NCBI GenBank assembly: GCA_027081015.1
Contig: JALWMA010000066.1
Span: forward strand, 10,389 to 48,296
Origin: Campylobacterales bacterium
Lineage (GTDB): Bacteria; Campylobacterota; Campylobacteria; Campylobacterales; Hydrogenimonadaceae
Length of the DNA stretch: 37,908 nucleotides
Direction of reading: 5' to 3'
The notes under the pieces are model-generated. The model was not told the DNA's origin and did not search any database. It saw only the letters and a program-made list of their open reading frames with translations. The position numbers and the translations under genes were made by a program. Positions 8,488-37,908 of the stretch are shown here, piece after piece (position 1 is the stretch's first letter; every line of letters starts with the position of its first letter).

Positions 8488-8538
8488 GCTCGGGTCGAAC
8501 GAGCTCTACTGCCGGAAACGTTCTTGAAAGGGGATACC

Positions 8539-10683
8539 GTGAACTCCGATCCCTCCGCGAATATCGCGATACCGGAACTTCCGGATGAACTGAGCGGTCT
8601 GGGCGAAATCGCCCTCAACCTCTGGTGGACGTGGAACCCCAGGGGCAAAAACATCTTCAGGCAGCTAAACCCCTATCTATGGAAAGAGAGCGGGCACAAC
8701 CCGATAGAGATGCTCAAAAAGCTCTCGCCCAAAGAGCTGCAGAGAGCCTGCGACAACGAAAACTTTATGCGCGAATACCGTTACGTCAACGCACTCTTTA
8801 AAGAGTATATGCACGACAAGACGGTCTACAGCGAAGAGGAGCCCCTGCCCATAGCCTACTTCTGTGCCGAATACGGCCTTCACCACTCCGTCCCCATCTA
8901 CTCCGGCGGGCTCGGTTTTCTGGCCGGTGACATCCTGAAAGAGTCGAGCGATATGGGGCTACCGATGGTGGGAATCGGGTTTATGTACCCGCAGGGGTAT
9001 ATCCGCCAGATAATAGGAAGCGACGGCTGGCAGAACGGAACCAACGAGCCTATAAACCGCGATACGGCGCCGATAGAGAGGGTACTCGACGACAGCGGTG
9101 GGCACTTTACGATTCAGGTTCCCTTCATAGACCCTCCCGTCTATGCGGCGGTCTGGAAGATAAACGTCGGCAGGGCCACTCTCTACCTTCTCGATACCGA
9201 TATACAAAAGAATGACCCGTGGGACAGGGAGATATCTTCGAGGCTCTACACTCCAGACATGAACCAGCGCCTGCGTCAGGAGATAGTTCTGGGCATAGGA
9301 GGCTACCGGGTTCTCGAAGAGCTCGGCATCGAGTACTCCATTCTGAATCTGAACGAGGGTCACCCCGCCTTTGCGCTTTTCGAGCGTGTACGTTCGTTTA
9401 TGGAGGATGAGGGGATGGCGCTCGACGATGCGATAGAGGAGGTGAGAAAGAGCTCCGTTTTCACGACCCACACCCCTCTTCAGGCGGGTACCGATGTATA
9501 CGGTTTCGATATGATGAGCCACTACTTCGAAGAGTACTGGAAGCGTCTCGGGATGGACAAAGAGCGTTTCATGGGCTTCGGCATAAACCCGGACGCTCCG
9601 AAGGCGGGGTTCAACATGACTGTACTCGGGCTCAGGATGTGCAGCCACCGCAACGCCGTCAGTAAAAAGCATCGCGACGTTACACGTACTATCTGGAAGA
9701 GTGTATTCGACCACGAAAACGAGAAAGAGGTTCCGATAGATTACGTCACGAACGGTGTGCATATACCTACATGGATAGGCGACGAACTCTTCGAAGAGCT
9801 CGACCGCAAACTGGGAGAGAACTGGCTGCATATGCAGGACAACGAGGATCTTTGGAGCCGCATCGAGGAGATAGACGACAAAAAGATATGGGATCTGCAC
9901 TATATCTACAAGGTGCGTATGGTCAACTTCATAAGAGAGAGGGTGCGGCGCAAATGGGCCGATGAGGGGATAGACCCGCTGGTGGCGATGGCAGAAGGAG
10001 TGATGCTCGATCCCGATGTTTTGACCATAGGGTTCGCGCGGCGTATGACATCGTACAAAAGGCCCGACTTGATACTGCACGATCTCGACCGCCTCGAGAG
10101 GATAATCAACGACTTCGCACGCCCGGTGCAGATAATTTTTGCGGGAAAGGCGCACCCCTCCGACAACCCGGGGAAAAAGATACTTCAGCACATCTTCAAG
10201 ACCGCGCAGGATCCGCGCTTCAGGGGGCGCATAGCGTTTGTGGAGGATTACGGCGAGAGTGTCGCCAAATATCTCGTTAGAGGGTGTGACGTCTGGCTCA
10301 ACAACCCTCTGATTCCGATGGAGGCGTGCGGGACGAGCGGAATGAAGGCGGCTATAAACGGTACGATCCACTGCTCGAGCCTCGACGGATGGTGGCCCGA
10401 AGGTTACAACGGACAAAACGGCTGGGCGTTCGGCGGTGAATCGTCGGACGATGCCGCCGATGCCGCCGCGCTCTACGATACGATCGAGCAGAAGATAGTA
10501 CCTCTTTACTACACGCTGAACGAGAGGGATCTTCCGGGCGGGTGGGTCAGTATGATGAAAGAGTCCATGAGATCGGTGGCGCCGAAGTTCAGCGCCAGAA
10601 GAATGATGAAAGAGTACCTCGGAAAGTTTTATATTCCGGTATCCAAAGAGCTGACCGAAGTAAAAAAAGGAGAAGAGTCATGA
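8539..10683 (+). CDS. glgP: Alpha-glucan (glycogen/maltodextrin) phosphorylase, paralog 1
   Basis: ~715 aa with DUF3417-like N-terminus (LNLWWTWNPRGKNIFRQLNPYLW), AYFCAEYGLHHSVPIYSGGLGFLAGD, SYKRPDLIL, and PLP motif ACGTSGMKAAINGT with Lys. GTG start at 8539 has gggg upstream; ORF track uses TTG at 8524. Confidence 0.93.
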   Translation: MNSDPSANIAIPELPDELSGLGEIALNLWWTWNPRGKNIFRQLNPYLWKESGHNPIEMLKKLSPKELQRACDNENFMREYRYVNALFKEYMHDKTVYSEEEPLPIAYFCAEYGLHHSVPIYSGGLGFLAGDILKESSDMGLPMVGIGFMYPQGYIRQIIGSDGWQNGTNEPINRDTAPIERVLDDSGGHFTIQVPFIDPPVYAAVWKINVGRATLYLLDTDIQKNDPWDREISSRLYTPDMNQRLRQEIVLGIGGYRVLEELGIEYSILNLNEGHPAFALFERVRSFMEDEGMALDDAIEEVRKSSVFTTHTPLQAGTDVYGFDMMSHYFEEYWKRLGMDKERFMGFGINPDAPKAGFNMTVLGLRMCSHRNAVSKKHRDVTRTIWKSVFDHENEKEVPIDYVTNGVHIPTWIGDELFEELDRKLGENWLHMQDNEDLWSRIEEIDDKKIWDLHYIYKVRMVNFIRERVRRKWADEGIDPLVAMAEGVMLDPDVLTIGFARRMTSYKRPDLILHDLDRLERIINDFARPVQIIFAGKAHPSDNPGKKILQHIFKTAQDPRFRGRIAFVEDYGESVAKYLVRGCDVWLNNPLIPMEACGTSGMKAAINGTIHCSSLDGWWPEGYNGQNGWAFGGESSDDAADAAALYDTIEQKIVPLYYTLNERDLPGGWVSMMKESMRSVAPKFSARRMMKEYLGKFYIPVSKELTEVKKGEES

Positions 10684-27075: not shown

Positions 27076-27999
27076 ATGAAAAAAGTAAACAGCTATTTTC
27101 TACGAAGTATAAAAGATATACTGCGTTGGGATGTTTTGAAACTCACGCTCGCTATAGGGCTACCCCTGATGGCGGTATGGATAGCGATAGGGTGGCTCTA
27201 CTGGGATCAGGCGGTTTCGATCACTTCGAAGATAATAAGCTGGGTACCCTTTTCGATCGTGAAGGCCAACGGGGCACTCTTTATACTCTTTTTTATCTGG
27301 TTTGTGGCCGTTCTGGTTACATTCGCGATCATTACGGCTCTCATAGGTCCGCCGATACTCAGAAAGTTCAAAGAGAGGACATACTACTTCTACACCTTCT
27401 CCTCTCTTCTCATACTCTCGGCAGGCTGGGCTCTCGTACTTCTGCTGAACTGGCACCTGGTAAACGAGCAGATACAGAGGCTCCTTACCCTTCTTCCGTT
27501 TCAGACCGTCGCCGACGGAATCGCATGGCTGATAGCCTTCTATCTCTTTTACAACATGTTCATACTCTCGCTCTACCTTGTCATATCCTATTTCAGAAAG
27601 CCGTTTCTGGATGCGATAAAAGAGATGGATTACCCCCATATAGATACTTCAGGCAGCGGTATAAGCAAAAAACACCATCTAAGCGTTTTGCGCGACTCTA
27701 TGCTCTTTATCATCCTCTCCGTCGTTCTCTTTCCCATACTCTTCATACCGGTCGCCAACGTCTTCGTTCAGCTCTTTTTGTGGGCGTGGCTCTACAGGGA
27801 GTCCTATTTTCTAAGCACCTGCTCCCTGTATTGCAACGAAGAGGATTACAACACCCTGCGCCACCACAGCTTTACGATATGGAGTATAGCCCTCTTCGCT
27901 TCGCTTCTCAACTTTTTGCCGGCGATAAACATTTTCGCTCCATTCTTCGCGCAGCTGATGTTTTTTCACTGGATAATGGAACACAAGGGTAAAGATTGA
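27076..27999 (+). CDS. EI24/CysZ-like integral membrane protein
   Basis: 307 aa, multiple TM helices; WLIAFYLFYNMFILSLYLVISYFRKPFLDAI and FAPFFAQLMFFHWI resemble EI24 domain. Confidence 0.65.
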   Translation: MKKVNSYFLRSIKDILRWDVLKLTLAIGLPLMAVWIAIGWLYWDQAVSITSKIISWVPFSIVKANGALFILFFIWFVAVLVTFAIITALIGPPILRKFKERTYYFYTFSSLLILSAGWALVLLLNWHLVNEQIQRLLTLLPFQTVADGIAWLIAFYLFYNMFILSLYLVISYFRKPFLDAIKEMDYPHIDTSGSGISKKHHLSVLRDSMLFIILSVVLFPILFIPVANVFVQLFLWAWLYRESYFLSTCSLYCNEEDYNTLRHHSFTIWSIALFASLLNFLPAINIFAPFFAQLMFFHWIMEHKGKD

Positions 28000-29651
28000 A
28001 AAAAGTATCTCCAATGTCCCATCCGTTTGCCGGCAGACCCGTACCGAAGGGTGAGCTTGTCGATATCCCCGCCCTGGTTTCGGCGTACTACGAACTAAAA
28101 CCCGGTCCTTCGGTAGAGAGCGAGAGGGTTGTTTTCGGCACCTCGGGGCATCGCGGCAGCTCTTTGAAAAGGAGCTTCAACGAGACTCATGTAACGGCGA
28201 TTTCCCAGGCCGTATCCGATTTTAGAAAGAAGCGGGGCATTAGCGGCCCCATATTTATGGGAATAGATACCCACGCCCTATCTACCCCTGCACAGATGAG
28301 CGCCGTACGCGTTCTGGCCGCGAACGGTGTCGATCTCTATATCGCCCAAGACGGTGAGTATACCCCCACACCGCTTGTATCGTTTGCGATTCTGCAGCAG
28401 AACGGTCGCAGCACGAAGAGTTCCGACGGCATAGTGATTACACCTTCGCACAATCCGCCGGAGGACGGCGGTTTCAAGTATAATTCCCAGAACGGCGGGC
28501 CTGCAGAGACCGAGATAACCGCAGAGATAGAGAAGCGCGCGAACCGTATTTTGGAAAGCGGTATGAGGGGGGTGAAGCGTGTAGATTACGAAGCAGCCGT
28601 CGGTTCACCGTCTGTAGAGGAGTACGATTTCATAACCCCGTATGTGGAGGCTCTGGCCGATATCGTGGATATGGGGAGCATAAAGAGGTCAGGCCTGAGG
28701 CTGGCGGTCGATCCGCTGGGAGGGTCCGCAATCGGGGTATACAGAAAGATAAACGAAATTTACGGACTCGATATGGAGATAGTAAACCCATATGTGGATC
28801 CGACCTTTTCGTTCATGACGCTCGATCGTGACGGTAAAATAAGGATGGACTGCTCATCCGAGTGGGCGATGGCCTCTCTCGTAAGGCTCAAAGATAGTTA
28901 CGATCTGGCGTTCGGAAACGATACCGATGCGGACAGGCACGGTATAGTCACTCCTGTCGGGGGGCTGATGAACCCCAACCACTATCTATGCGTCGCTATA
29001 TGGTACCTCTTCAAGCACCGTAAATGGGCGCAGCATCTCAAAATAGGCAAGACTCTTGTCAGCAGTTCGATGATTGACCGCATAGCCGCAAGCCTGAAGA
29101 GGGAGGTTTACGAAGTACCGGTGGGCTTCAAATGGTTCGCCGAGGGGCTCTTCGAGGGGTGGCTCGGTTTCGGCGGCGAAGAGAGTGCGGGTGCTTCGTT
29201 TTTGAGGTTCGACTCATCCGTCTGGACGACCGACAAAGACGGCATAATCATGAATCTTCTCGCAGCCGAGATAAAGGCTGTCACGGGCAGGGACCCTGCC
29301 GAGATATACGCCGATTTCGAAAACGAGTTCGGAAAATCGTACTACAGGCGCATAGACGCCCCAGCCACGCAGGAGCTAAAAAAGAGGCTCAAAAAGCTTG
29401 ATGAGAAGGAGTTGAGACTCACCGACCTAGCCGGTGAAAAGATAGAGAGAATCTACACCAGGGCTCCCGGAAACGGCGCCCCTATCGGTGGAGTGAAGAT
29501 CGTGACCGAAAACGGCTGGGTGGCCGTGCGGCCGTCGGGAACGGAGGATATCTACAAAATCTATGCAGAAAGTTTCCGCTCCGAGGAGCATCTGGATGAG
29601 CTTCTGGAGGATGCCGGGCGGGTAGTGTCGTCTCTGTCGGCACAAAAGTGA
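27996..29651 (+). CDS. pgm: Alpha-D-glucose phosphate-specific phosphoglucomutase
   Basis: FGTSGHRGSSLKRSFNETH, VITPSHNPPEDGGFKYN, NDTDADRHGIVTP, RPSGTEDIYKIYAESF. TTG 27996 or ATG 28014 start. Confidence 0.96.
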   Translation: MKKVSPMSHPFAGRPVPKGELVDIPALVSAYYELKPGPSVESERVVFGTSGHRGSSLKRSFNETHVTAISQAVSDFRKKRGISGPIFMGIDTHALSTPAQMSAVRVLAANGVDLYIAQDGEYTPTPLVSFAILQQNGRSTKSSDGIVITPSHNPPEDGGFKYNSQNGGPAETEITAEIEKRANRILESGMRGVKRVDYEAAVGSPSVEEYDFITPYVEALADIVDMGSIKRSGLRLAVDPLGGSAIGVYRKINEIYGLDMEIVNPYVDPTFSFMTLDRDGKIRMDCSSEWAMASLVRLKDSYDLAFGNDTDADRHGIVTPVGGLMNPNHYLCVAIWYLFKHRKWAQHLKIGKTLVSSSMIDRIAASLKREVYEVPVGFKWFAEGLFEGWLGFGGEESAGASFLRFDSSVWTTDKDGIIMNLLAAEIKAVTGRDPAEIYADFENEFGKSYYRRIDAPATQELKKRLKKLDEKELRLTDLAGEKIERIYTRAPGNGAPIGGVKIVTENGWVAVRPSGTEDIYKIYAESFRSEEHLDELLEDAGRVVSSLSAQK

Positions 29652-29664
29652 AAAAGGATCGACG

Positions 29665-30924
29665 ATGATTACCTACGACCACAACCTGGGATGGAGAGCC
29701 GACGATGATGCGAACGAACTGATGGCGGAGGCTTTCGGAAACCTCGTTTACGAAAGGGAGAAGGGTGTTGTCGGCTACTACAACCTCCCTTTCGATTCCG
29801 GATTGATCGTCAGCGAAGCGGAGGCGTACGCGGCATCGAGCGACGCGGTGCGAAACTGCGACACGATAGCGGTCATAGGGATAGGGGGCTCTTCGCTGGG
29901 TGCCAAGGCGGTAGACTCGATTCTCAGACCCCGCTCCCCGGAGGCGAAGCGGCTCCTTTTCTTGGAGAATCCCGACCCTGTGGATATAGAAGAGAAGTTC
30001 GATACGCTGCAGAAGGAGAAGACCCTCTTTATCGTAATTTCGAAATCCGGTACCACCGTCGAGACCATCTCCATCTTCAAAGCAGCCGTCGAGAGATTCG
30101 GGCTGGATCTGGACGGAGAGGACAGGGAGCGGGTCATAGCGATAACGGACGAGGGTTCACCTTTATGCCACTTCATCGACCGCCACGGCCTTAAAGCCTA
30201 CACGATCCCTCACAATGTGGGAGGCCGATTCTCGGTACTGAGCAGCGTGGGCATAGTGCCGCTCACACTGGCCGGCTACGATACGCGCTCCATCCTTTCG
30301 GGCGCATCGGAGATGGTGGAGAGGTTTTTCGACGCGCAGGAGGAGCATCTTCTGATCAAAGCCGCCTTTATAGCGAGCAGCTGGAGGGAGTATCGTATAA
30401 ACGTAGTGTTCGCCTACGCCTCCCGGCTGGAGGACTTTACGAAGTGGTACGTGCAGCTGTGGGGTGAATCGCTCGGAAAGATCGACCGCTGCGGAAACCG
30501 TGTCGGGCCTACGCCGGTAGGGCATATCGGCCCCGTAGACCAGCACTCGTTTCTTCAACTCGTCATGCAGGGGCCGCGTGACAAGAGCGTTACATTCATA
30601 AAGGTGGAAGATTTTGAGAAAAGTCTGAAAATACCCGATATAAGGCTTGAACATATAGAGAAGAGCGACTATCTCAACGGCCATACCTTCAACGAGCTTA
30701 TAAACGCCGAGTGTGACGCGACGATGGAGAGTCTTGCGGGCGAAGGCATCCCGGTAGACTCGATAACCATGAGCAGGGCCGATGAACGGAGTGTCGGGGA
30801 GCTCATCGCATATTACGAGCTTCTGACTTCGCTGACGGGTGCCATGCTCCATATCAACACCTACGATCAGCCCGGGGTGGAGACCGGTAAGCGCATTTTG
30901 GCGAAAAAATTTGAAAAGGGATGA
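29665..30924 (+). CDS. pgi: Glucose-6-phosphate isomerase
   Basis: IGIGGSSLGAKAV, VISKSGTTVETISIFKAA, GGRFSVLSSVGIVPLTLAG, GPVDQHSFLQLVMQGPRDK. Confidence 0.96.
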   Translation: MITYDHNLGWRADDDANELMAEAFGNLVYEREKGVVGYYNLPFDSGLIVSEAEAYAASSDAVRNCDTIAVIGIGGSSLGAKAVDSILRPRSPEAKRLLFLENPDPVDIEEKFDTLQKEKTLFIVISKSGTTVETISIFKAAVERFGLDLDGEDRERVIAITDEGSPLCHFIDRHGLKAYTIPHNVGGRFSVLSSVGIVPLTLAGYDTRSILSGASEMVERFFDAQEEHLLIKAAFIASSWREYRINVVFAYASRLEDFTKWYVQLWGESLGKIDRCGNRVGPTPVGHIGPVDQHSFLQLVMQGPRDKSVTFIKVEDFEKSLKIPDIRLEHIEKSDYLNGHTFNELINAECDATMESLAGEGIPVDSITMSRADERSVGELIAYYELLTSLTGAMLHINTYDQPGVETGKRILAKKFEKG

Positions 30925-32576
30925 AACGGATGGATCTCTTTCCCTACAACATAGATGAGAAATACAGGACGAAAGTGGCCTACTTTTCGATGGAGTTCGC
31001 CATCGACCAGGCGCTAAAGACATACTCCGGCGGCCTCGGCTTCCTGGCCGGCTCGCACATGCGCAGCGCGAACGACAGGCGCCAGCACACGATAGGCGTG
31101 GGAATACTCTGGAGCTACGGCTATTACGATCAGGGGCGCCACGAGGACAACACCCTCAAGATCGAGTACAGGCGCAAGTTCTACTACTTCATAGAGGAGA
31201 CGGGAATAAAGGTGGAGGTGGTCATAAACGGCAAACCGGTGGTCGTCAAAGCCTATCTGCTGCCCGCCTCTACGTTCGATACCGCACCGGTGATCCTCCT
31301 CTCGACCGACTGCTTCGAAAACGACCACCTCTCACGTACGATCACGCACAAACTATACGATGCCAACGAAGAGACGCGCATAGCACAGGAGATCGTGCTT
31401 GGTATCGGCGGAGTGAGGGTGCTCGAGGCGATGGGGGTCGATATAGATGTCTACCATATGAACGAGGGGCACTCGCTGCCGCTCGTTTTCGAACTGATGA
31501 GGAGATATCCGGCTTTGGAGGAGCTGAAAAAGCATGTCGTCTTTACGACCCATACGCCCGAGATGGCCGGTAACGAAGAGCACGACGTGGAGCTCCTGGA
31601 GCGGATGGGCTTTTTCAACGGCTTTTCAAAAGCCGAGATAGCGGAGAGGATCGACTATTACGAGAGGAGCTTTTCGCTTACGGTCGGAGCCCTCAAAACC
31701 TCCAAGCGGGCCAATGCCGTTTCGAAGATACATGAAAAAGTGGCCAACGAGATGTGGAAGGGTATCGGCGGCAGGTGCGAGATAATCAGCATAACCAATG
31801 CGCAAAACATGCGGTACTGGGCCGACAAACAGCTTCTGAGTTGGATGCAGGAGCATGAAGACTACCAGCTTGTCGGGCGGAAGAAACATCTCAAGCATAT
31901 CCTTTTCGAAGAGGTCGCCCACCAGACCGGAAAGCTTTTCGACCCCGATGTGCTGACGATCGTCTGGGCCAGAAGGTTCGCCGAGTACAAGCGTCCGGGC
32001 CTGCTCATATACGATATGGAGCGGTTCAGAAGGTTGATCTCCGACAAGGAGAGGCCGGTCCAGATAATCTGGGCCGGAAAGCCGTACCCGCTCGACTACC
32101 GCGCGATCCAGATGTTCAACGATCTCGTCCTGATGAGCAGGGAGTTCAAAAATGTGGCCGTCCTGATCGGTTACGAGCTTCGACTTTCGAAGCTCCTGAA
32201 GCAGGGGAGCGATCTGTGGCTCAATACGCCGAGGTGGGGGCGCGAAGCGAGCGGTACGAGCGGAATGAGCGCAGGCGTCAACGCCTCCATTCACTTCTCC
32301 GTCGACGACGGCTGGCATGCGGAGTTCCAAAAAGACGGGATCAACTCCTTCACCATACCCCACGCCGACCCGTCCCTGCCGGTAGAGGAGATAGACCGGC
32401 TCGACTACCTTACGATGATGCAAAAGCTCGAAGAGGTGATAATTCCAATGTATTACGAAAACGAAAAGGGGTGGCTCGATATAGCAAAGAACGGAATGAA
32501 CGACATAATCGCCTACTTCAGCTCCTCCAGAATGGTGGAGGAGTACTACGAGAAGCTCTACGACTACGGGAGCTGA
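30921..32576 (+). CDS. Alpha-glucan phosphorylase family protein, paralog 2 (short, PLP-lysine position is Ser)
   Basis: 551 aa; AYFSMEFAIDQALKTYSGGLGFLAGSHMRSA, VYHMNEGHSLPLVFEL, VFTTHTPEMAGNEEH, EYKRPGLLIYD, REASGTSGMSAGVNASIHFSVDDGWHAEF. ATGA overlap with pgi. Confidence 0.88.
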   Translation: MKRMDLFPYNIDEKYRTKVAYFSMEFAIDQALKTYSGGLGFLAGSHMRSANDRRQHTIGVGILWSYGYYDQGRHEDNTLKIEYRRKFYYFIEETGIKVEVVINGKPVVVKAYLLPASTFDTAPVILLSTDCFENDHLSRTITHKLYDANEETRIAQEIVLGIGGVRVLEAMGVDIDVYHMNEGHSLPLVFELMRRYPALEELKKHVVFTTHTPEMAGNEEHDVELLERMGFFNGFSKAEIAERIDYYERSFSLTVGALKTSKRANAVSKIHEKVANEMWKGIGGRCEIISITNAQNMRYWADKQLLSWMQEHEDYQLVGRKKHLKHILFEEVAHQTGKLFDPDVLTIVWARRFAEYKRPGLLIYDMERFRRLISDKERPVQIIWAGKPYPLDYRAIQMFNDLVLMSREFKNVAVLIGYELRLSKLLKQGSDLWLNTPRWGREASGTSGMSAGVNASIHFSVDDGWHAEFQKDGINSFTIPHADPSLPVEEIDRLDYLTMMQKLEEVIIPMYYENEKGWLDIAKNGMNDIIAYFSSSRMVEEYYEKLYDYGS

Positions 32577-33958
32577 CTCTCGATATCGCGCCTGTTTATG
32601 TAGCGGACGCTTTTGCCCTGGAAGATCTTCTCCCCGAGGTAGCCGGTCACCATCACGAACGCCGACGGACTCTTTCCGATCAGCTTCAGGAATTTGGCCG
32701 TAAGCTCCTTTTCGCTTCCGAACTCCTCTATCGCGACGCTCTCGTGCACTCCCCACACCAGGGAGCTCTTGTTCAGCAGATCCCTGTCGGTCGTTATCGC
32801 GTATATCGGCTTTTGGGGCCTGAATTTGCTCAGGTGTCGCACCGTATACCCCGAGAGCGTGAGCGCCGCGATCAATTCGCAAGGTATCAGCTTCGACATC
32901 TCGACGGCCGCGTGGGAGAAGGCTTCGGCCGGCTCGGGAGCCGCATCTTTCGGCGGTGTGCATAGGTGTTGAGTCTGAAGAATCGTATCTTTGAGGACAC
33001 CCACCGCTTTTTCCGGGTAGCTGCCTACGGCCGTCTCGTCCGAGAGCATTACGGCGTCGGTGCCGTCGAGCACCGCATTGGCTATATCGGATACCTCCGC
33101 CCTGGTAGGGTAGGGGGAGCCTATCATCGATGTGAGCATCTGTGTAGCCGTTATTACCGGTTTCGCGGCTATGTTGCACTTTCTGATTATCTCCTTTTGC
33201 AGCAGGGGGACCCTGTAGAGTCCGGCTTCCGCACCCAGATCGCCGCGTGCGACCATTACCGCATCGCTCGCCTCGATGATTTCGTCGACCCTCTCCAGTG
33301 CGCTCTTCCTCTCTATTTTGGCCGTAATCCAGGAGCTGCCGCCGGCCTCTTTCACGATTCGGCGGGCTTCGTTCAGGTCGTCGGCGGAGCTTACGAAAGA
33401 GACGGCCACAAAGTCGACTCCCGCTTTTGCGCCGAAGCGGAGATCCTCCCTGTCTTTTTGTGTCAATGCGCTCAGAGATATTTCGCTGTCGGGCAGGTTC
33501 ACCCCTTTGCCTTCGGCAAGCGTCCCCGGGGTGAGTATTTCGAGTTCGACAATTCCGCCGTTCCTCTTGACGATACGGGCATGGACCGTGCCGTCGGCGA
33601 AAAATATATCTTCACCCTCCCTGAGCGACTCCAAAAGCTCGGGGTGCGTGATCGAAAATGCCTTTTCCGACGGCTCTTCGGCCATGAAGAGCCTCTGTGA
33701 CCGCTCTACTTTGAGCCTCTTTTTCAGACCCCTTATTCTTATCTTCGGGCCGCAGATATCCTGAAGAATCCCGATATGACGCCCCTTTTTGCCGGCTATA
33801 TCCCGAATGGTGCGGATGCTTTTTAGATGCTCTTCATGAGTGCCGTAGGAGAAGTTGAGCCTGAATATGTTGACTCCTGCATCTATCATCCTTTCGATAC
33901 TCTCCGGGCTCTCTGTCGAGGGCCCAAGGGTGGCCACAATCTTTACTTTCGGGTACAC
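32564..33958 (-). CDS. pyk: Pyruvate kinase
   Basis: YPKVKIVATLGPSTESPESIERMIDAGVNIFRLNFSYG, ITAKIERKSALERVDEIIEASDAVMVARGDLGAE, ATQMLTSMIGSPYPTRAEVSDIANAVLDGTDAVMLSDETAVG. GTG start at 33958 with aaggag upstream. Confidence 0.96.
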   Translation of the reverse strand: MYPKVKIVATLGPSTESPESIERMIDAGVNIFRLNFSYGTHEEHLKSIRTIRDIAGKKGRHIGILQDICGPKIRIRGLKKRLKVERSQRLFMAEEPSEKAFSITHPELLESLREGEDIFFADGTVHARIVKRNGGIVELEILTPGTLAEGKGVNLPDSEISLSALTQKDREDLRFGAKAGVDFVAVSFVSSADDLNEARRIVKEAGGSSWITAKIERKSALERVDEIIEASDAVMVARGDLGAEAGLYRVPLLQKEIIRKCNIAAKPVITATQMLTSMIGSPYPTRAEVSDIANAVLDGTDAVMLSDETAVGSYPEKAVGVLKDTILQTQHLCTPPKDAAPEPAEAFSHAAVEMSKLIPCELIAALTLSGYTVRHLSKFRPQKPIYAITTDRDLLNKSSLVWGVHESVAIEEFGSEKELTAKFLKLIGKSPSAFVMVTGYLGEKIFQGKSVRYINRRDIESQLP

Positions 33959-33989
33959 TGAAACTCCTTGTTTACCAATATGTGTTAAC

Positions 33990-33995
33990 ATTATA
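33990..33995 (-). promoter_or_regulatory. TATAAT -10 box for pyk (minus strand)
   Basis: Reverse complement reads gTATAATg about 30 bp before the GTG start. Confidence 0.4.
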
Positions 33996-34023
33996 CATCC
34001 TCTACGATCGAAAAGGAGAGAGA

Positions 34024-34983
34024 ATGCCGCTTGCGATTGTCTGTTCGGGAGGGGACGCGCCCGGGATGAACCCCGCCATAAAGAAGTTCGTGGACTACGT
34101 CTACGAAAAGGGCGAAATCCCGTACTTCGTATACAACGGTCTCGAAGGGCTCATAGACGGCGATATAGCTTTGGCGACACACAAGGATGTGGCAGGCATC
34201 GTCCACAGGGGCGGTGCTATAATCAGGTCGTCGAGATCGAAGCGCTTCTACGAGTACAAATATAGGAAAATCGCATACGAGAACCTGAAAAAGAGCGGCA
34301 TAACGGGTCTGGTCGTTCTGGGGGGCGACGGGTCGTTTAGGGCCATGCAGAGGCTCAGCGAAGAGTTCGAGCTCAACTTCGTAGGCATTCCCACAACGAT
34401 CGACAACGACATATACGGCACCGACACATGCATCGGCGTCGATACGGCGCTGAATGTCATTCGCGACGCACTCGACAAGATCAGGGATACCGCGTCCACA
34501 TTCAGCCGCGCCTTCGTCGTAGAGGTCATGGGGCGTGAGTGCGGCTACCTGGCGGCGGTCTCCGCCATTACGAGCGGTGCCGAAATATGCCTCATACCCG
34601 AGGCCGACTTCAACAGGAGCGTTGCTCGGGAGCATCTGAAAAGGGAGATCGAAGAGGGCAGAAGCTATATACTCTGCATCGTCTCCGAAGGTACCGCGAT
34701 GACGAACGATATAGCGCAATGGCTCGAGAGCGAGATCGGGATGGAGACCAGGATAACGGTGCTCGGCCATATTCAGCGCGGAGGAAGCCCTACGGTGAAC
34801 GATCGTATGCTCGCGTTCGAGTTCACGGTTCGCGCGGTAGACCACCTTCTCCGATCTGTCGACTCGAACAAGGTAATGGTGATCGAAAACGGCCGGTACG
34901 GGATGAAGGATATAGAAGAGGTGGTCGAAAATCGGTACAGGATCGATCCTGAGCTGCTTGGAATGTTGAACCGGCTCGACTGA
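34024..34983 (+). CDS. pfkA: 6-phosphofructokinase, probably ATP-dependent
   Basis: CSGGDAPGMNPAIKKFVDY, LGGDGSFRAMQRL, PTTIDNDIYGTDTCIGVDTAL, VVEVMGRECGYLA, LGHIQRGGSPTVNDR. Start at 34024 after aaggagagaga. Confidence 0.95.
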   Translation: MPLAIVCSGGDAPGMNPAIKKFVDYVYEKGEIPYFVYNGLEGLIDGDIALATHKDVAGIVHRGGAIIRSSRSKRFYEYKYRKIAYENLKKSGITGLVVLGGDGSFRAMQRLSEEFELNFVGIPTTIDNDIYGTDTCIGVDTALNVIRDALDKIRDTASTFSRAFVVEVMGRECGYLAAVSAITSGAEICLIPEADFNRSVAREHLKREIEEGRSYILCIVSEGTAMTNDIAQWLESEIGMETRITVLGHIQRGGSPTVNDRMLAFEFTVRAVDHLLRSVDSNKVMVIENGRYGMKDIEEVVENRYRIDPELLGMLNRLD

Positions 34984-35055: not shown

Positions 35056-35095
35056 CGGATAGCTGGAGTGCGGCAGAATGAAAAAAGGAGTCGAG

Positions 35096-35374
35096 ATGGT
35101 GAAGATAACGAAGAGAGGCAAAAAGGCGTGGGTCACATTCACTCTCGAAGAGGGTGGATTGGGTTCGGCAGAGATCAAGGGGAGTTGGAACGGATGGGAG
35201 CCCGAATCCATGAGGCGTAAAAAGAGCGGGGGCTTCTACATTGTAAAGGTGCTTCCCGCAGGCGAATCCTTCGAATTCGGCTATGTTTTGGAGGATGGCA
35301 GGTGGCTTAACGACGAGACTCTTCCGTCTACAGACTCTCCGTTCGGCAGCAAAAATTCGGTTTTGAAAACCTGA
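35096..35374 (+). CDS. Stand-alone CBM48 (isoamylase N / glycogen-binding domain) protein
   Basis: VTFTLEEGGLGSAEIKGSWNGWEPESMRRKKSGGFYIVKVLPAGESFEFGYVLEDGRWLNDE; aaaaaaggag upstream of ATG 35096 (ORF track start 35078). Confidence 0.85.
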   Translation: MVKITKRGKKAWVTFTLEEGGLGSAEIKGSWNGWEPESMRRKKSGGFYIVKVLPAGESFEFGYVLEDGRWLNDETLPSTDSPFGSKNSVLKT

Positions 35375-35450
35375 GCGTAGGACAGGGGGTGTTTCGGTAC
35401 CGCGGCGCTCTTGAACGAAAGAGAAGCCGAAATAGAGAAAGGAGGGGCCA

Positions 35451-37908
35451 ATGTCGAAAAAGATAAAAGCGGTCGTGATGGCGGGCGGGTTCGGCACCCG
35501 CATACAGCCTCTGACCCACTCGATACCGAAACCTATGCTGCCGATCGTCAACCTCCCGATGATGGAGCATACGATAAACAGTCTGGCTGAGATCGGAATC
35601 AAAGATTTTATAATTCTGCTCTATTTCAAGCCCGACGTCATAAAGAGCCGCTTCGGTGACGGGAGGGAGAGGGGGATCAACATCGAGTATGTTCTCCCAG
35701 ACGACGACTACGGCACGGCGGGGGCAGTCGGGTTTGCAAGAGAGTATCTCGATACTACCTTCATGATCGTCAGCGGCGATCTCGTCACAGACTTCGACTT
35801 CAAAAAGATTGTCGAATTCCACAAAAAGAGAAAGTCGAAACTGACCATTACGCTCACCTCGGTCGAAAACCCGCTTCAGTTCGGTGTCGTGATTACCGAC
35901 GAAAACGGAAAGATAGAGAAGTTTCTCGAAAAGCCGAGTTGGGGAGAGGTCTTCAGCGATACGATAAATACCGGAATCTATCTTATCGAGCCGGAGATTT
36001 TGAACTATATCCCCGTAGGGGAGAATTTCGATTTCGCAAAAGATCTCTTTCCCCTGCTTATGGAGGAGGGGGTGGAGATTCTGGGCTACGATGCGGCCGG
36101 CTACTGGCGCGATGTAGGCAATCCGGATAGTTACCGCGAAGTGCACGACGACATTTTCAACAGCAGGTTGAACTTCAAAATCCCCGGCAAAAAGATCGAA
36201 TATCCCGACGGGATCCTCTATCTTACGGGAGAGAGCGAAATAGGGCCTGACATAGAGATAATAGATACGGTCGTGATAGGAGAGAACGTAAAGATCGGCA
36301 AACGTACGCGCCTGCACAACGTGGCTATAGGGGACAACGTAACGATCGGTAACGAGTGCCGCATAAGAAACTCTGTACTCTGGCACGATATTCAGCTCGG
36401 CAAAAAGGTGGTTCTCGACAACAGCGTCATCTGCAACGACAACAAAATAGGCGATGGAGTAGTCGCAAAGGCCGGGCTGATACTTGCCGAAGGGTGCGAA
36501 GTTGGCAAACTGGCCCATTTCGAGCAGGATGTTACGGTCTGGCCAGACAAGAAGATAGAGCCGGCCGCCATCGTCAACAACAACGTCGTATGGGGGAGCC
36601 GCTACCGCAACACGATATTCGAAAACGGCAGTATCAGCGGCAAAAGCAATATAGAGATCAGCTGCGAAATGGCCTGCAAGATCGGGGAGGCCTTCGGTTC
36701 CCAGCTTCCGCCAGGAAGCAGAGTGGTGGTAGGCCGCGACTACGACAAGAGCCCCCGCATGATCAAACGGGCCTTTGTCGGAGGTCTGCTCGCCGCAGGT
36801 ATAGATGCGATAGATCTGCGGGCCATTCCGCCGGCCGTGATGCGTTACAATCTCAGCCGGGACGCGACGCTGCTCGGCGGGGTACACTTCAGAAAGAGTC
36901 TCGTGGACCCCGCCGGTGTGCAGATTACGCTCTACAACGAAGAGGGGCTGAGAATCGATACCAATTCGGCCAAAAGCATAGAGAAGACCTTCTTCAAGGA
37001 GGATTTCAGGCGGGTCGACTATAACGAGATAGGCTCGATCCACGACAGCAACCTCTACCACTACGACAGCTGCATCTCCTATAAAAGGGCACTGGAGCTC
37101 TCTATAGATCACAAGATCATCAAAACGAAGGGTTTTAGAGTTGCCGTCGACCTGATGTTCGGCATAACCAAAGATGTCTTTCCCCAGATCATGACCGATC
37201 TGCAGATCGACAATATCATGCTCAATGCCTATACCGATGCCAGAAAGCTCTCCAATATTCACAATGTGAAGATAAAACTCAAAGAGGATATTTCGCGCAT
37301 AGTGACCGGACTCGGTCTCGATATGGGAATTTTGATCTACCCGCACGGTCAGCGGCTCACGCTTGTGACCGACAAGGGTGATGTGCTGAACAAGGTGGAG
37401 GCCCTTAATGCGGTTTTGGAGCTTATGAACATGGAGGCGGAGCACTGCCAGACCAAACTGAAGGTCTTCCTGCCTACATGGGCTCCGGACCTGATGGACG
37501 AGTCCTACTCGCACCTTTCGATCAAGCGCGGTAAATATACCAACTTCAAGGCATCGACACTCAAGCGTTACGACCTTATAGCCACGATCGACGGAAACTA
37601 CGCATTTACCGAATTTTCTCTGCACAGAGACGCGATGTACGCCAGTCTGAAAATAATGGAGCTGCTTACGCGCCACGATGTCAGGCTTTCGGAGGTGGCC
37701 AAAGAGATGACCCACTTCTATTTCCATATATGCCGCATTCCGTGTCCCCAGTCGATGAAGGGGAGGATGATACGCAAATTTCTCGAGTATGCGAAAGGGA
37801 AAAAGGCCTCCACCACCGACGGAGTGAAGATTTGGGAGAACGAGACGGACTGGATACTGATGATACCCGACCAGTACAGCGAACATCTCAACTTCTATAT
37901 CCAGGCGC
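35451..37908 (+). CDS. Sugar-phosphate nucleotidyltransferase / hexapeptide / phosphomannomutase-like fusion (3' end outside window)
   Basis: My translation: MSKKIKAVVMAGGFGTRIQPLTHSIPKPMLPIVNLPMMEHTI; IGENVKIGKRTRLHNVAIGDNVTIGNECRI hexapeptide repeats; C-terminal PMM/PGM-like fold. ggaggggcca upstream; frame open to window end, so missing from ORF track. Confidence 0.92.
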   Translation, partial: MSKKIKAVVMAGGFGTRIQPLTHSIPKPMLPIVNLPMMEHTINSLAEIGIKDFIILLYFKPDVIKSRFGDGRERGINIEYVLPDDDYGTAGAVGFAREYLDTTFMIVSGDLVTDFDFKKIVEFHKKRKSKLTITLTSVENPLQFGVVITDENGKIEKFLEKPSWGEVFSDTINTGIYLIEPEILNYIPVGENFDFAKDLFPLLMEEGVEILGYDAAGYWRDVGNPDSYREVHDDIFNSRLNFKIPGKKIEYPDGILYLTGESEIGPDIEIIDTVVIGENVKIGKRTRLHNVAIGDNVTIGNECRIRNSVLWHDIQLGKKVVLDNSVICNDNKIGDGVVAKAGLILAEGCEVGKLAHFEQDVTVWPDKKIEPAAIVNNNVVWGSRYRNTIFENGSISGKSNIEISCEMACKIGEAFGSQLPPGSRVVVGRDYDKSPRMIKRAFVGGLLAAGIDAIDLRAIPPAVMRYNLSRDATLLGGVHFRKSLVDPAGVQITLYNEEGLRIDTNSAKSIEKTFFKEDFRRVDYNEIGSIHDSNLYHYDSCISYKRALELSIDHKIIKTKGFRVAVDLMFGITKDVFPQIMTDLQIDNIMLNAYTDARKLSNIHNVKIKLKEDISRIVTGLGLDMGILIYPHGQRLTLVTDKGDVLNKVEALNAVLELMNMEAEHCQTKLKVFLPTWAPDLMDESYSHLSIKRGKYTNFKASTLKRYDLIATIDGNYAFTEFSLHRDAMYASLKIMELLTRHDVRLSEVAKEMTHFYFHICRIPCPQSMKGRMIRKFLEYAKGKKASTTDGVKIWENETDWILMIPDQYSEHLNFYIQA

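Follow-up and report, generated by a model that had tools for sequence, protein, structure and literature searches.

The gene glgP2 of a deep-sea vent bacterium of the order Campylobacterales encodes a phosphorylase-family protein (GT35/TIGR02094) from which the pyridoxal 5'-phosphate (PLP)-binding lysine has been lost. It lies in a 37,908-nucleotide stretch of contig JALWMA010000066.1 (assembly GCA_027081015.1, positions 10,389 to 48,296 of the forward strand), which is referred to below as the window. Glycogen phosphorylase is a textbook PLP enzyme. Our leading reading, held tentatively and drawn from sequence comparisons, is that glgP2 represents an ancient GT35/TIGR02094 branch of single origin and is a putative alpha-glucan phosphorylase that would work without Schiff-base PLP.

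Loss of the PLP lysine in glgP2 and its relatives

The glgP2 reading frame starts with ATG and contains no internal stop codon. Its product scored 420.4 bits against the TIGR02094 profile (curated cutoff, 191.7), which places it in this family, and only weakly against the classical profiles (41 to 45 bits to PF00343/TIGR02093, the 45 being to Pfam Phosphorylase). The TIGR02095 profile of GT5 glycogen synthases gave no match at an E value of ≤1e-3. In alignments, Ser450 of glgP2 shares a column with K646 of Escherichia coli MalP and with K608 of paralog 1, the lysine-bearing phosphorylase of the same window. MalP K646 is the Schiff-base lysine that covalently carries PLP (PMC11046441). Paralog 1, which has an N-terminal DUF3417 domain and scored 796 bits against TIGR02094, contains Lys608 (codon AAG) within the motif GTSGMKAAINGT. 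In glgP2 the motif is EASGTSGMSAGVNAS (fuller stretch, GTSGMSAGVNAS), and the GT35 signature E-A-S-G-T-x-x-x-K ends in Ser450 (codon AGC) in place of the PLP lysine. The substrate-region stretch is changed as well, from GKAHPSDNPGKK in paralog 1 to GKPYPLDYRAIQ in glgP2. A preliminary description of this DNA had reported both changes in an intact gene whose fold motifs are otherwise retained, and each of its factual statements about the sequence holds. By its own account, another lysine aligned with the PLP site would have spoken against the loss; the alignment places none there, although four clade-specific invariant lysines (K33, K86, K321, and K427) exist elsewhere in the protein.

Homologues were collected from genome contigs, whole genomes of relatives, and plasmids, the genome samples comprising 396 Bacteroidota and 397 Campylobacterota. 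We refer to proteins without the PLP lysine as K-less and to lysine-bearing TIGR02094 proteins as K-type. Among 108 distinct relatives from Campylobacterota and Bacteroidota, the PLP position is occupied by Thr (70), Ser (30), or Ala (8) and never by Lys, whereas the lysine is present in every one of the 30 K-type TIGR02094 proteins compared. Thus, Ser450 is not a product of chance or of sequencing error. Another 38 loci (19 + 19) carry S or T at this position; the motif of L204 was missed by a simple pattern.

The K-less homologues are 50 to 95% identical to glgP2. Among named records, the Campylobacterota carriers are Hydrogenimonas, Nitratifractor, and Nitratiruptor, to which metagenome-assembled genomes are added; the Bacteroidota carriers include Mucilaginibacter, Pedobacter, Chitinophaga, Pontibacter, Runella, and others. 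Profile scores in the 396 Bacteroidota genomes were bimodal, with K-less proteins at 793 bits or above and then a gap down to 471 bits. The protein at 471 bits, L145, keeps the lysine. So do L155, L167, L168, and L171, which like L145 are only 569 to 578 amino acids long. The preliminary description had suggested a common loss among related short TIGR02094-type proteins; because these relatives keep the lysine, shortness is ruled out as its marker. Viral contigs yielded no relatives, phage records held only distant matches (30% identity) or canonical host genes, and no archaeal relatives surfaced in plasmid or PDB searches.

K-less genes are also borne on plasmids, in Pontibacter actiniarum (L165) and Runella rosea (L166). 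A DUF1622 gene precedes the K-less gene on the Pontibacter plasmid and a lysine-bearing glgP (L168) on a Methylophaga plasmid, hinting that the two occupy the same cassette niche. Five Bacteroidota genomes (G066, G174, G265, G376, and G467) contain two K-less copies and no lysine-bearing one and would allow a division of labor to be studied.

Origin, selection, and structure of the K-less clade

In a maximum-likelihood tree of 82 rows, built by a quick method, all K-less proteins formed one clade (Shimodaira-Hasegawa-like approximate likelihood ratio test support, 100) that arises from within the K-type proteins. Campylobacterota and Bacteroidota sequences fell on opposite sides within it (supports, 91 and 94). 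This topology indicates that the lysine is ancestral and was lost once, long ago, before the branch spread over two phyla, and it bears out the earlier suggestion that the loss defines a subfamily. The K-less stem is long, at 1.5 changes per column. L145 was placed as sister to the clade (support, 98), a position that, given the quick method and the long branch of L145, is less secure than the monophyly of the clade. This Bacteroidota protein of 575 amino acids (L145/L202, genome G306) has the PLP lysine and yet also the LKTYSGG loop, which makes it a natural intermediate from which the sequence of events could be worked out. Lys33, which lies in that loop, was considered as a compensatory KxGGL-like lysine. 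It is invariant in K-less proteins but also present in lysine-bearing L145 and L158; thus, it is not diagnostic and not simply compensatory.

Pairwise ratios of nonsynonymous to synonymous substitution (dN/dS) against close relatives were 0.043 to 0.061 for glgP2, a sign of strong purifying selection; the values were similar for pgi (0.058 to 0.065) and higher for pgm (0.093). The glucose-pocket and phosphate-binding residues typical of GT35 are in place in glgP2, and those that are invariant or nearly so among K-less proteins are E442 (MalP E638), R351 (K534), R352 (R535), Y356 (Y539), K357 (K540), K387 (K574), N293 (N450), H211 (H346), G445, and T446; Y418 is also kept. This conservation argues against decay. 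Other positions near the motifs have switched and are now fixed (D45S, G348V, F349W, G294A, H296N, A388P, H389Y, and K396I), and E214, N218, E419, and K427 are invariant residues specific to the clade. On these alignments, the K-less active site is remodeled rather than abandoned.

An AlphaFold2 model of glgP2, computed from a 39-row alignment, is a two-domain GT-B structure with a mean predicted local distance difference test score (pLDDT) of 89.2 and a predicted template modeling score of 0.88; confidence was low only in the glycine-rich loop at residues 30 to 40. In a Foldseek comparison with the PDB, the top 50 matches were all phosphorylases, in agreement with the GT-B fold. The best was the glycogen phosphorylase of Segatella copri (9l6i/20yr; E value, 4.5e-43; query template modeling score, 0.86). 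In common with TIGR02094 phosphorylases such as this one, glgP2 has the fold, the family profile, and the catalytic and phosphate-site residues; it differs in the absent PLP lysine, the absent DUF3417 N-terminal domain, a shorter middle region, and the switched K-type motifs GKAHPxDxxGK, GF(A)RR, LAGD, and TNGVH. With E. coli MalP/GlgP, of the TIGR02093 type, it shares a homologous GT-B core in which E638, R535, K540, N450, and T642 are kept, but MalP is much longer and has K646 as its Schiff-base lysine.

GT5 GlgA has in common with glgP2 the GT-B fold, an R/K pair, and the first Glu of the donor loop, and glgP2 scored 22.9 bits against a home-made GlgA hidden Markov model. With this model, K-less proteins gave a median of 28.7 bits and K-type proteins 10.4, which looked like a shift toward GT5. 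The lysine-bearing sister L145 reached 31.8 bits, however, the two groups could not be told apart by single domains, and K-type proteins fared better in profile-profile comparison. Once controlled in this way, glgP2 is no closer to GlgA than lysine-bearing GT35 proteins are, and we regard the signal as neutral.

Genome context

In the window, the stop codon of pgi and the start codon of glgP2 overlap as ATGA, which is consistent with the pgm-pgi-glgP2 operon proposed in the preliminary description. The window features are collected in Table 1.

Table 1. Features of the window discussed in the text, with coordinates counted from its first nucleotide
Feature	Coordinates	Strand	Basis
glgP2, lysine-less GT35/TIGR02094 protein, 551 aa	30921..32576	+	family profile score; AlphaFold2 model
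K33-T-Y-S-G-G-L-G glycine loop; Lys33 clade-invariant, mostly Pro in K-type	31017..31040	+	alignment; AlphaFold2 confidence low, residues 30-40
RRFAEYK: R351, R352, Y356, K357 = MalP K534, R535, Y539, K540 (phosphate sites)	31971..31991	+	alignment
GKPYPLDYRAIQ in place of K-type GKAHPxDxxGK	32076..32111	+	alignment
EASGTSGMS motif: E442 (MalP E638), G445/T446 of anion cradle, S450	32244..32270	+	EASGTSG invariant in K-less family
Ser450 codon AGC at PLP Schiff-base lysine site (MalP K646)	32268..32270	+	alignment with E. coli MalP
Paralog 1, K-type TIGR02094 phosphorylase; Lys608 codon AAG at 10345-10347	8524..10683	+	
pgm, phosphoglucomutase	27996..29651	+	TIGR01132, 819 bits, over cutoff
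pgi, glucose-6-phosphate isomerase; overlaps glgP2 start	29665..30924	+	PRK03868, 560 bits, over cutoff
Pyruvate kinase, convergent; 13-base overlap with glgP2 end	32564..33991	-	
pfk, 6-phosphofructokinase (cluster c9)	33982..34983	+	cluster membership; homologue L096:11192-12148 is PFK
Small glycogen-binding (AMPK1_CBM-like) protein (cluster c10)	35078..35371	+	homologue L096:10887-11162 matches PF16561
Sugar nucleotidyltransferase/phosphomutase fusion, runs past contig end	35451..37907	+	homologue L095:9634-12153

In other Campylobacterota, the cluster continues with two GH57 genes (one of the 4-alpha-glucanotransferase type), a GalT-like gene, GlgA, a ROK sugar kinase, and GlgB, and in some genomes a K-type glgP joins it. 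The K-less gene of Bacteroidota is mostly solitary; the first locus set showed no conserved neighborhood in this phylum, and neighbors were common only to small subclades. Six Bacteroidota genomes have a K-less gene without GlgA or GlgB over the cutoff. In three of these, a cyclomaltodextrinase, another GH13 enzyme, and a major facilitator superfamily transporter are encoded at most a few kilobases away.

Among 60 Campylobacterota relatives, GlgA was over the cutoff in 31 of 33 K-less genomes and in 3 of the 27 others (Fisher test, 2e-11, a value overstated because related genomes are not independent). In Bacteroidota, GlgA was found in 29 of the 42 sampled K-less genomes and in 293 of 354 others, so that the association is absent or slightly negative. 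Thus, "glycogen-synthesis partner" cannot serve as a general description of the K-less protein.

The K-less protein is the sole PF00343 protein in at least nine Campylobacterota genomes that are 97 to 100% complete (for example, G052, a single contig, and G009, G021, G030, G041, and G047). The same is true of all 50 Bacteroidota K-less genomes tested, 44 of which have GlgB over the cutoff. None of the 396 Bacteroidota genomes carried K-less and K-type genes at once (expectation, about 23), whereas 12 Campylobacterota genomes contained both, above chance; the P values of these comparisons are likewise inflated by relatedness.

Several further observations concern the glycogen genes. The fusion of nucleotidyltransferase, hexapeptide, and phosphomutase parts (about 840 amino acids; L095:9634-12153) scored below every NCBIfam cutoff and is a conserved neighbor of glycogen genes across Campylobacterota. 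It may supply NDP (nucleoside diphosphate)-glucose to GlgA, replacing GlgC. Opposite this gene in the window, an antisense open frame of 852 amino acids (35328-37886, minus strand) has no family match and is most likely spurious, a product of codon usage. Several Campylobacterota have two glgA paralogs in this cluster, with a ROK kinase gene between them, as at L096 (3805-5346 and 1447-2931) and at L094 (10771-12162 and 12997-14463). In one Campylobacterota genome (G506:C1:456699-458228), a TIGR02094-type gene is broken into several short fragments, one of them interrupted by a stop codon, and has apparently been lost.

Proposed phosphorolysis without Schiff-base PLP and its alternatives

We favor phosphorolysis, tentatively as said, because the K-less protein is the sole GT35 member in many users of glycogen or maltodextrin, because the operon supplies a route for the product, and because two anion subsites survive. 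In a cell that uses either glucan and has no other GT35 protein, phosphorolysis is either lacking or carried out by the K-less protein. The single loss, the purifying selection, and the retained glucose pocket also speak for this reading. In the reaction we envisage, R352 and K357 would bind the attacking phosphate, and a second anion, probably free phosphate, would occupy the former cradle of the PLP phosphate, formed by R351 and the turn G445-T446-S447. The attacking phosphate itself would protonate the glycosidic oxygen in a front-side displacement resembling internal nucleophilic substitution (SNi), and the glucose 1-phosphate released would pass via Pgm and Pgi to Pfk and Pyk.

The retaining trehalose phosphorylases of GT4 are PLP-free. 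They belong to another family and act on another substrate; what they would have in common with glgP2 is being retaining phosphorylases of a glycosyltransferase family with a proposed SNi-like mechanism. In a review, the phosphorylases of GT4 and GT35 are said to follow an SNi-like course in which phosphate donates the proton (PMC8950772). According to another review, the glycogen phosphorylase of the archaeon Methanococcus maripaludis (MmGP) needs no PLP, unlike all other characterized phosphorylases (PMC12267944). On that account PLP-independent phosphorolysis has a precedent, and this reported property is what MmGP would share with glgP2.

Several observations weigh against phosphorolysis. 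The long stem and the switched residues D45S, G348V, F349W, A388P, H389Y, and K396I could mean a changed reaction. The cooccurrence of K-less and K-type genes in 12 Campylobacterota genomes, being above chance, implies that the two types are not simply interchangeable. The adjacent NDP-sugar pyrophosphorylase fusion and GlgA suit synthesis equally well, and the mutual exclusion of the two types in Bacteroidota is confounded by taxonomy.

The main alternative is that glgP2 has turned into a retaining glucosyltransferase dependent on NDP-glucose, or gone back to being one, and serves as an extra glycogen synthase or a primer enzyme; the nucleotide would sit in the vacated PLP site and the diphosphate in the two anion subsites. 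Pocket loops that are remodeled and strictly conserved (W349, W384, P388, E419, K427, and a small residue at 450) suit such an enzyme, as do the pyrophosphorylase/phosphomutase fusion adjoining the gene in several genomes, the presence of GlgA and GlgB in the same cluster, and the proposal, made in a review, of a proto-GT35 enzyme that used NDP-sugar before PLP took over the place of the nucleotide (PMC11046441). However, most carrier genomes already have GlgA and would then be without any phosphorylase, and the likeness to GlgA does not follow the loss of the lysine, as the score of L145 attests. The six Bacteroidota genomes without GlgA and GlgB, and the three in which the gene lies beside a maltodextrin-degrading locus, also fit poorly. 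A PLP-independent NDP-sugar transferase had been put forward in the preliminary description; we keep it as a rather unlikely option, genome content and neighbors agreeing somewhat better with a phosphorylase. Were a GT35 enzyme to use NDP-glucose instead of phosphate and PLP, an unlikely outcome, the proposed recruitment of PLP would have been reversed and a new class of alpha-glucan synthase would exist in two phyla.

It is more doubtful still that glgP2 remains a PLP phosphorylase, with the cofactor bound noncovalently or on a relocated lysine such as K33 of the glycine loop or K427. In glycogen phosphorylase, the phosphate of PLP rather than the imine does the chemistry, and R351, G445, T446, and Y418 are kept; the four clade-specific invariant lysines provide candidates. 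Against this, the position is small in 108 of 108 homologues with Lys never regained, residues beside the anion site have changed in concert, and Lys33 is shared with the lysine-bearing L145 and L158. The least likely reading, and an improbable one, is the pseudoenzyme or sensor of the preliminary description: a noncatalytic protein that senses glucan, acts as a scaffold, or regulates paralog 1 or GlgA. The loss of a textbook catalytic-cofactor residue and the K-type paralog adjacent in some genomes would agree with such a role. It is disfavored by the catalytic, glucose-contacting, and phosphate-contacting residues, invariant across two phyla, and by a dN/dS of 0.04 to 0.06, which resembles that of a metabolic enzyme. 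Moreover, most hosts have no other GT35 protein and thus no paralog for it to regulate.

A search of the open-licence literature found no paper on a GT35 branch without the lysine; what appears to be novel is the bacterial K-less clade itself, together with its single origin and motif switches. According to a recent review, PLP is attached to a specific lysine in all phosphorylases, the one exception in activity being archaeal; given that report on MmGP, PLP-independent phosphorolysis is itself not unheard of. With the K-less branch, it can be tested directly whether PLP is indispensable to the chemistry of GT35 and whether the cofactor once displaced a nucleotide from a proto-GT35 enzyme. Because databases annotate K-less proteins as glgP, "alpha-glucan family phosphorylase," models of glycogen metabolism for Mucilaginibacter, Pedobacter, Chitinophaga, Hydrogenimonas, and their relatives rest on a putative enzyme.

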